A stretch of 64,000 nt of DNA from Salinirussus salinus (lineage in GTDB: Archaea; Halobacteriota; Halobacteria; Halobacteriales; Haloarculaceae): positions 310,001 to 374,000 of the forward strand of contig NZ_WOWO01000004.1 of the NCBI RefSeq assembly GCF_009831455.1, in the 5' to 3' direction. The notes below the pieces were generated by a model. It was not told where the DNA came from and ran no database searches. It saw only the letters and a program-made list of their open reading frames with translations. Positions within the stretch are counted from its first letter, which is position 1. Every line of letters begins with the position of its first letter. The position numbers were made by a program, and so were the translations under genes. This document shows positions 52,945 through 54,669 of the stretch, piece by piece.

Positions 52945-53904
52945 TCACTCCGGTATCGGCGTCGTGACCGCGTCGTTGCCGGCGGCCGTCATCGAGTGGA
53001 TCACCGAGGAGTAGTTCCCGATCCCGCCGGCGACCATGACGAGAGCGTCGTCGGGCGAGCGCAACAGCGGGTTGTCGTCGCCCCACCGGCAGTGGTCGTG
53101 GAGGTACTCCTTGACCTCCTGTTTCTCGTAGTCCTGCCCCAGACGCCCCGCGTGGTCCTGGCCCAGGACGAACAGCATCGGGCCGGGCATCGTGGACGGG
53201 CCCATCGCTGACTCGGTGGCGCCGTGGGCCAGCCCTTCGAGGATGTCCTCGTCGTCGGGGTCCGGTCCGATCCCCTCGTCGAGCAGGTGTGGCGAGTGGG
53301 CGGGGTAGACGGTGACGGCACTGGTGTCGGGGTCCAGGTCCGCGGTGTCCGTGTGCAGCGGGTCCCAGGGACTCTCCTCCTCGAACTCGCCGAAACAGTA
53401 GGTGTACCGCCCCGGGTGCGCGTGTGTCGCCTTCGTCCCGGTTCCGGGGTAGACCCGGCCGACCGTGATGAACGCGAGGCTGACCGCCCGGCCGATGGTC
53501 GCGTTGGCGCGGTAGCCGGGGCCGAACAGCCCCGTCCCGCAGTTCACGTCGAGGTCGTTTCTCGCGGGGCCGTTGACGATGACGGCCGGGCAGAAGCCGC
53601 TGGTGGTGGCCATCACGGCCCGGAGGTTCGGCCACTCCGCCAGCCCCTCCATCGCGGCGAGCACGGCAGGGAAATACTCCGGCCGGCAGCCGGCCATGAC
53701 CGCGCAGCTGGCAAGCGACTCGACGGTGAGTTCGTCGAAGCTCGTGGGGATCTGCATGAGGGTCTCGCCGCCCGGCCGGTCGACGGTGGCCAGCGTGTCC
53801 GCGACGCGCTCGTCGGTCGGCGGGATCACGGGTAGCCCGTCCGAGAGTTCGTTCTCGTGGAGGTACTCGAAGAGCTCCTCGGGCTCGGTCGGGACGTTAT
53901 CCAT
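52945..53904 (-). CDS. Partner protein of the CGSC/UGSC-like unit, 319 residues
   Basis: A soluble 319-residue protein of unknown function. The N-terminal segment SDGLPVIPPTDERV and the conserved-looking blocks AVMAGCRPEYFPAVL, ATTSGFCPAVIVNGP, NCGTGLFGPGYRANATIGR and GHPG-like HAHPGRYTYCFGE suggest an enzyme with several functional cysteines (Cys67, 73, 105, 122, 170). I recall similar proteins in bacteria beside UGSC proteins. Its start overlaps the CGSC gene stop by 8 bases. Confidence 0.75.
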   Translation of the reverse strand: MDNVPTEPEELFEYLHENELSDGLPVIPPTDERVADTLATVDRPGGETLMQIPTSFDELTVESLASCAVMAGCRPEYFPAVLAAMEGLAEWPNLRAVMATTSGFCPAVIVNGPARNDLDVNCGTGLFGPGYRANATIGRAVSLAFITVGRVYPGTGTKATHAHPGRYTYCFGEFEEESPWDPLHTDTADLDPDTSAVTVYPAHSPHLLDEGIGPDPDDEDILEGLAHGATESAMGPSTMPGPMLFVLGQDHAGRLGQDYEKQEVKEYLHDHCRWGDDNPLLRSPDDALVMVAGGIGNYSSVIHSMTAAGNDAVTTPIPE

Positions 53905-54457
53905 CGTCGCCAGCGAGCAGACACTCCTCGCAGGTGAGCTGGGTGTGGACGCTCCACTGGATCCGTTCGGCCAGCGCGTCGACCTCCTCGCTGTCGAGGT
54001 AGCGGGTCGGGTGGTCGACCGTGATGAGCGGGAGCTTCTCGTAGCCGTAACTCTCCGAGATCCTGGTGTTCAGGTCGAGGAACTTGTCGGTGATGACCTG
54101 GACGGTCGGGACTCCCTTCTCCTCGAAGGTCTTCGCGTCGACGACGACCGAGGAGTTACAGGACCCGCAGTCGGCGATCGCGAGAATGACCCCGTCGGGA
54201 TCCGCCGCCATGATCTCCTCCATCAGGTCGCCCGGGACCGGGCTCGACGGCGTCGGCTTCCGGTAGTACAGCAGCTCCTCGATGCCGAACTCCTCGGTGA
54301 AGCGGCGCTCGAAGCAGTCGTACAGTTCCTCGCCGTTGGGCTTGCCCCAGTCGACGTAGGCGAGGGTCTTGCCCTCGAGGTCGTCGATGCGGTCGGCGTA
54401 TGTCGCCTCCGATGTCGACTCCCCGTCCGACCCGGGGAGATTGATGCTCTCGCTCAT
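53897..54457 (-). CDS. CGSC protein, cysteine form of the UGSC (seleno)protein family
   Basis: A 186-residue protein with redox-type motif CGSC (Cys97-Cys100) in VILAIADCGSCNSS, aligned with the U-G-S-C motif of UGSC-family selenoproteins, where selenocysteine replaces the first Cys. A second pair, CEEC (Cys176, Cys179), is near the C-terminus. The rest has a Rossmann-like feel (KTLAYVDWGKP, VPTVQVITDKF). The TATA-like GGTATATG box at 54486-54493 is about 30 bases upstream. Role unknown; likely thiol/selenol redox. Confidence 0.75.
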   Translation of the reverse strand: MSESINLPGSDGESTSEATYADRIDDLEGKTLAYVDWGKPNGEELYDCFERRFTEEFGIEELLYYRKPTPSSPVPGDLMEEIMAADPDGVILAIADCGSCNSSVVVDAKTFEEKGVPTVQVITDKFLDLNTRISESYGYEKLPLITVDHPTRYLDSEEVDALAERIQWSVHTQLTCEECLLAGDDG

Positions 54458-54485
54458 GGGTGTCTCTAGCGTGCATCCCGGGTCT

Positions 54486-54493
54486 CATATACC
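54486..54493 (-). promoter_or_regulatory. TATA box of the CGSC operon
   Basis: Minus-strand GGTATATG lies about 32 bases before the ATG at 54457. The transcript should be leaderless and cover both genes. Confidence 0.55.
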
Positions 54494-54595
54494 TACGGGG
54501 GCGGTCCCGCCCCGCCCGCGCACGCGGGACTCTCCCCGCGTTCAAACCGTGTCAGGATGGACCTTTTCACTGCTCACTATCGTTCGCAGGAAAAG

Positions 54596-54669
54596 TCCGC
54601 CCTCCCCGATTTGAACGGGGGACAAGTCGATCTACAGTCGACTGCTCTACCAGTCTGAGCTAAGGGCGG
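54596..54669 (-). tRNA. tRNA-Tyr (GTA)
   Basis: Folded by eye on the minus strand. Acceptor CCGCCCT pairs with AGGGCGG, with discriminator A and no encoded CCA seen. The anticodon arm is GTCGA-CTGTAGA-TCGAC, giving anticodon GTA, and the T-arm is CCCCG-TTCAAAT-CGGGG. The C1:G72 pair is the archaeal tyrosine identity feature. No intron is present; 74 bases. Confidence 0.93.

Follow-up and report, generated by a model that had tools for sequence, protein, structure and literature searches.

UGSC and a constant partner protein in the haloarchaeon Salinirussus salinus: a gene pair probably encoding one reductase

The locus at 52945 to 54457 of the window (the whole 64,000-nucleotide stretch of DNA analyzed, from the 3.37 Mb haloarchaeal genome of Salinirussus salinus) raises the question of whether two overlapping genes, one of them related to the UGSC (seleno)protein family, encode the parts of a single enzyme and, if so, of which kind. 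A preliminary description had read the locus as two genes overlapping by eight bases, the first coding for CGSC at residues 97-100 plus CEEC near its end, and the minus-strand open reading frames of 186 and 319 amino acids agree with it in all these points:

52945..53904, minus strand: gene 2, partner protein of 319 amino acids outside any described family (without Pfam, NCBIfam, or PDB match; dN/dS 0.11; found in 12 of 242 genomes, the very ones with UGSC)
53686..53688, minus strand: codon of partner Cys73 (in VMAGC), the sole family-conserved partner cysteine (Cys in 28 of 29 relatives)
53897..53904, minus strand: 8-base overlap ATGGATAA, comprising the start of gene 2 and the stop (TAA) of gene 1 (from the sequence)
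53897..54457, minus strand: gene 1, UGSC-family protein, Cys form, 186 amino acids (PF24696, 125.2 bits with a cut-off of 25; NF041046, 112.3 bits; dN/dS 0.17)
53921..53932, minus strand: CEEC, UGSC residues 176-179, near the C-terminus (Cys in two of the 23 sequences, which belong to this genus)
54158..54169, minus strand: CGSC motif, UGSC residues 97-100 (Cys97 and Cys100 invariant in 23/23 aligned relatives, with TGA at 97 in four)
54484..54491, minus strand: TATA-like TATATGAG, ending 26 nt ahead of the gene 1 ATG (sequence reading)

The placement of TATATGAG suggests a possible promoter and one leaderless transcript for the gene pair. A congener maintained the pair in the same surroundings (1.5 kb aligned, 88.8% identity), and these kept surroundings together with the dN/dS values of 0.17 for the UGSC gene and 0.11 for the partner gene indicate that both genes are real and under purifying selection. 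The pair in the window lies between other genes and a tRNA-Tyr gene upstream (54595-54669), with no thioredoxin or catabolic genes adjoining.

The product of gene 1 matched Pfam PF24696 over nearly its whole length and passed the gathering cut-off, while its score against NCBIfam NF041046 was just below the equivalog cut-off of 125 and does not certify it as an equivalog. It has in common with the published UGSC family (PF24696, NF041046; Zhang and Gladyshev, 2008) the profile match, the [CU]GSC motif, and the existence of Cys and Sec forms, and departs from it in being a divergent Cys form that scores below the NCBIfam equivalog threshold. The CGSC at 97-100 lines up with TGA-containing relatives and occupies the Sec position, in agreement with the earlier view of this protein as a Cys relative of UGSC. 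Conservation of the two cysteines across relatives, on which that view depended, was complete in the 23 aligned UGSC proteins, including the four whose codon at position 97 is an in-frame TGA interpreted as Sec; this alignment excludes three UGSC domains from the natural fusions of Variovorax boronicumulans, Vibrio, and Sporomusa. A general role of CEEC is not supported, and as a family feature it was ruled out by its restriction to this genus. Annotated UGSC genes of Paracoccus (L041, 8953-9519) and Acidovorax (L044, 8640-9167) were cut at an in-frame TGA aligned with Cys97, probably a Sec codon missed by annotation in both cases. A scan of genome contigs for relatives returned the congener only, and a search of viral contigs returned none. 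The portions of the literature consulted give the published UGSC family no function and no named partner except an “Unknown_1” fusion domain; this “UGSC/Unknown_1” fusion was reported in 2008 (Zhang and Gladyshev, 2008; PMC2398784) and its second domain may be the UGSC partner described here.

The partner had been called undescribed, and it indeed gave no match in Pfam, NCBIfam, or the PDB, either as a single sequence or as a 29-member family. Searches of the PDB at this locus, by sequence and by profile, produced no credible hit. The accompanying claim of at least five conserved-looking cysteines was not sustained by the comparison of 29 partners: of the six present (67, 73, 105, 122, 170, and 272), Cys73 is kept in 28/29, Cys170 is Cys in 16/29 and Cys122 in 4/29, and Cys67, Cys105, and Cys272 are Cys in this genus only. 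“Cys-rich” was therefore rejected as a description of the family, since Cys73 alone is conserved. The partner at locus L062 has Ala in the place of Cys73, which makes an essential function of this residue less likely; its conversion into a pyruvoyl group is a speculation. AlphaFold returned an unusable model for the partner (with one congener; pLDDT 31).

Distribution of the two genes showed a near-constant association. Single-sequence and profile searches for the partner in 242 haloarchaeal genomes marked precisely the 12 genomes (10 genera) that have UGSC, with the two genes adjacent in 12/12. Among plasmids, 24 records carried the partner, 20 of which also had a UGSC gene (tblastn) and three of the remaining four were single-ORF fusions with the UGSC domain N-terminal, such that UGSC accompanied the partner as a separate gene or a fused domain in 23/24. 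The sole exception in the plasmid set was Haladaptatus halobius (L068), with the partner and no UGSC in the 18.9 kb examined. Pairwise distances of UGSC and partner across 22 loci were correlated at 0.95 (0/5000 permutations as high), which is supporting evidence only because shared host ancestry contributes to it. The V. boronicumulans fusion keeps CGSC. Those of Vibrio europaeus (L039) and Sporomusa termitida (L038) lost both motif cysteines (DMGTS), from which it follows that the partner can act without the UGSC redox center, and they are possibly a non-redox derivative. The latter two fusion genes adjoin aconitase X and DUF126 genes.

Further variants of gene order were observed. At L043, L053, L057, L065, and L072, a single UGSC gene lies between two partner paralogues (partner-UGSC-partner), which suggests a heteromeric partner or two substrates. 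The Haladaptatus halobius locus otherwise resembles the Halorientalis locus (L065). In Neorhizobium galegae (L042, 8836-10573), the first part of the partner is in frame with UGSC, the remaining partner is in another frame, and the motif is HCSTC; this arrangement is a frameshift or broken fusion.

TrxB-like CxxC flavoproteins were encoded near the pair in 5/17 annotated loci (raw count), namely those of Arthrobacter (with trxA), Roseovarius, Variovorax SRS16, V. boronicumulans, and the archaeon Haloterrigena. Given a handful of TrxB-like genes in each genome, we would expect one nearby in far fewer than five of 17 loci. The Paracoccus locus includes selA, selB, and trxB (within about 10 kb). 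Many loci are placed amid genes for CoA transferases, enoyl-CoA hydratases, aldehyde dehydrogenases, and parts of TRAP or tripartite tricarboxylate transporters, making organic-acid catabolism and transport a frequent neighbor type. The proposal that the two genes act as one unit, for which a survey of neighborhoods had been suggested, is thus supported: homologues of the two are usually together, not apart. Its support comes from the invariant CGSC of the aligned set, from co-occurrence and adjacency in archaea as well as bacteria, from the fusions and the distance correlation, and from the TrxB-like neighbors in some relatives.

Profile searches pointed to a candidate relationship with selenoprotein subunits of amino acid reductases. 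The best non-self NCBIfam matches of UGSC members were GrdB in 10/23 (best E 0.0015), PrdB in 5/23 (best E 0.0022), and TIGR01918; GrdF and GrdH ranked lower. In weak alignments, residues 78-151 of the UGSC protein in the window corresponded to 328-395 of the GrdB model and residues 86-121 to 137-172 of the PrdB model. In the 436-residue GrdB, Sec occupies position 350, and in the 242-residue PrdB position 152 (PMC3091704); these alignments consequently put Cys97 close to the Sec of their UxxC sites. Scores stayed far below the cut-offs of TIGR01917, TIGR01918, and TIGR04483 (15.9 vs. 602.2, 12.3 vs. 65.45, and 14.9 vs. 300), PF07355 gave no match among UGSC proteins in the Pfam search, and the GrdB/PrdB matches are not independent, given the kinship among the UGSC members that gave them. 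A remote relationship is probable from these alignments, and not membership. GrdB/PrdB sequences looked for in the S. salinus genome, 393 genomes of the phylum, and 10 plasmid records gave no match, nor did the control genomes, and this result therefore does not indicate absence.

In D-proline reductase, PrdA holds the substrate via a pyruvoyl group, the alpha carbon is the point of attack for the PrdB Sec, and a PrdB Cys then resolves the adduct (PMC3091704). The UGSC pair is similar in its proposed two subunits, a small one with CxxC/UxxC and a larger one, and in the weak PrdB match over the Sec site; it differs in a partner without PrdA match, in the absence of recognized prdC, prdD, or prdF neighbors, and in a PrdB score far under the cut-off. 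Protein B of glycine/betaine/sarcosine reductase (GrdB and GrdE) is likewise matched weakly by UGSC over the Sec site, but no GrdA, GrdC, GrdD, or GrdE was recognized, the 29 partners gave no match to GrdE or PrdA models in Pfam and NCBIfam, and UGSC is not even half as long as GrdB. Electrons of glycine reductase pass from thioredoxin reductase to thioredoxin and GrdA (PMC3091704) and so reach GrdB, and the neighbors of the UGSC pair suggest a similar supply.

The near-constant pairing, the fusions, and the thioredoxin reductase genes nearby in several relatives therefore indicate that UGSC and its partner probably constitute one reductase. A more specific reading, to which we give slightly less than an even chance, is that they are the two subunits of a PrdA/PrdB-like, thiol/selenol-dependent, and thioredoxin-fed reductase of a small organic acid. 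UGSC would be its small alpha/beta subunit, with Cys97 (Sec in some relatives) as the nucleophile and Cys100 as the resolving residue, both in a loop that connects a strand to a helix, like the UxxC of PrdB and GrdB. The partner would bind the substrate, as the preliminary description had also supposed, Cys97 would attack a carbon of the bound organic acid with reductive breakage of a C-X bond, Cys100 would turn the adduct into a disulfide, and thioredoxin with thioredoxin reductase would regenerate UGSC from this disulfide. The fold, chemistry, substrate class, and substrate-binding subunit in this scheme are what we infer by analogy. This thioredoxin-fed reductase is argued for by the shared 12/242 genomes and adjacency, the 23/24 plasmid records including three fusions, and the correlation of 0.95; by a CGSC invariant in unfused members, four of which have an in-frame TGA in place of the Cys97 codon; by TrxB-like neighbors at five loci and trxA at one; by GrdB and PrdB as best non-self matches over their Sec site; and by the frequent organic-acid genes. 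It is opposed by the very low GrdB/PrdB scores among interrelated members, by a partner without GrdE/PrdA match, by the lack of adjoining thioredoxin or catabolic genes at the copy in the window, and by the Vibrio and Sporomusa fusions without either motif Cys.

The same CxxC/UxxC motif and TrxB-like neighbors would also suit a thioredoxin-like antioxidant or disulfide-reducing oxidoreductase acting on peroxides or protein disulfides, with the partner as a docking protein or substrate. Thioredoxin-fold oxidoreductases resemble UGSC in a CxxC motif with Sec forms, but none of the 23 UGSC members matched a thioredoxin, peroxiredoxin, or other thioredoxin-fold profile at E up to 0.1, and the neighbors are catabolic rather than stress-related. 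The element order ahead of the motif in the alignment (strand-helix-strand-helix-strand) is also unlike thioredoxin, according to a low-confidence prediction (AlphaFold for UGSC alone gave an unusable model with mean pLDDT 41). An oxidoreductase of this type is consequently considered unlikely.

Loss of both cysteines in two fused relatives beside aconitase X and DUF126, and weak matches to DUF436 and an asparaginase C-terminal domain over the same UGSC stretch, would instead fit a non-redox enzyme (e.g., an isomerase, racemase, or dehydratase) whose catalysis falls mainly to the partner, with an acid/base or structural role for the UGSC Cys. The four members with Sec in place of Cys97, together with the TrxB-like neighbors, point to redox or nucleophilic chemistry, leaving such an enzyme similarly improbable. 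Highly unlikely is a detoxification enzyme that removes an electrophile (e.g., an organohalide or other xenobiotic) by thiol attack: the distribution is sporadic and partly on plasmids, one from a strain of linuron-contaminated soil and one of the IncP type with IS1071, but no resistance or dehalogenation gene recurs beside the pair and neighbors vary by locus.

Returning to the two-subunit reductase, it may represent an unrecognized family of thiol/selenol reductases of archaea and bacteria, kin to PrdB and GrdB through UGSC and with a new substrate-binding subunit, a broader proposal that is tentative and rather doubtful. As a sequence family UGSC is already on record; the literature covered yielded no account of its pairing with the partner, of a link to thioredoxin, or of a possible relationship with GrdB/PrdB. 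If true, the proposal would provide the first function for an abundant orphan selenoprotein family of aquatic microbes. The pairing, the fusions, the thioredoxin reductase link, and the glycine/proline reductase lead turn UGSC into a testable enzyme, and selenium machinery is not needed to express the haloarchaeal Cys form.

Probable Sec forms of UGSC were also identified in archaea. Two phylum-mates (G416 and G424) have a UGSC gene whose first motif codon is TGA, adjoining a partner gene, and the in-frame TGA loci in Archaeoglobi-like genomes are L046 and L047 (G416, G424), L063, and L087. Both G416 and G424 contain tRNA-Sec with anticodon TCA and SepSecS matches, that of G416 in two pieces on two contigs, and SelD was above the cut-off in G424 and not in G416. 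G424 has an apparent PSTK-aSelB fusion ORF directly before SepSecS, as reported from one Archaeoglobi species (PMC8762117), which is the reason for naming the G424 lineage Archaeoglobi-like. Archaeal EF-1A and EF-2 genes share the contig with the Sec-form UGSC of G424, making bacterial contamination unlikely. Rfam SECIS elements were not found around the archaeal Sec genes, and RNA folds after their TGA were no better than those of shuffles. Judging from these genes, an Archaeoglobi-like archaeon probably makes UGSC as a selenoprotein. UGSC is not named among the 11 archaeal selenoprotein families in the accessible part of a 2026 review (PMC13188914), and would in that case be an additional one. 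A Cys-form (L061) and a Sec-form (L063) UGSC-partner pair coexist in the G424 genome, offering a natural Cys/Sec comparison.
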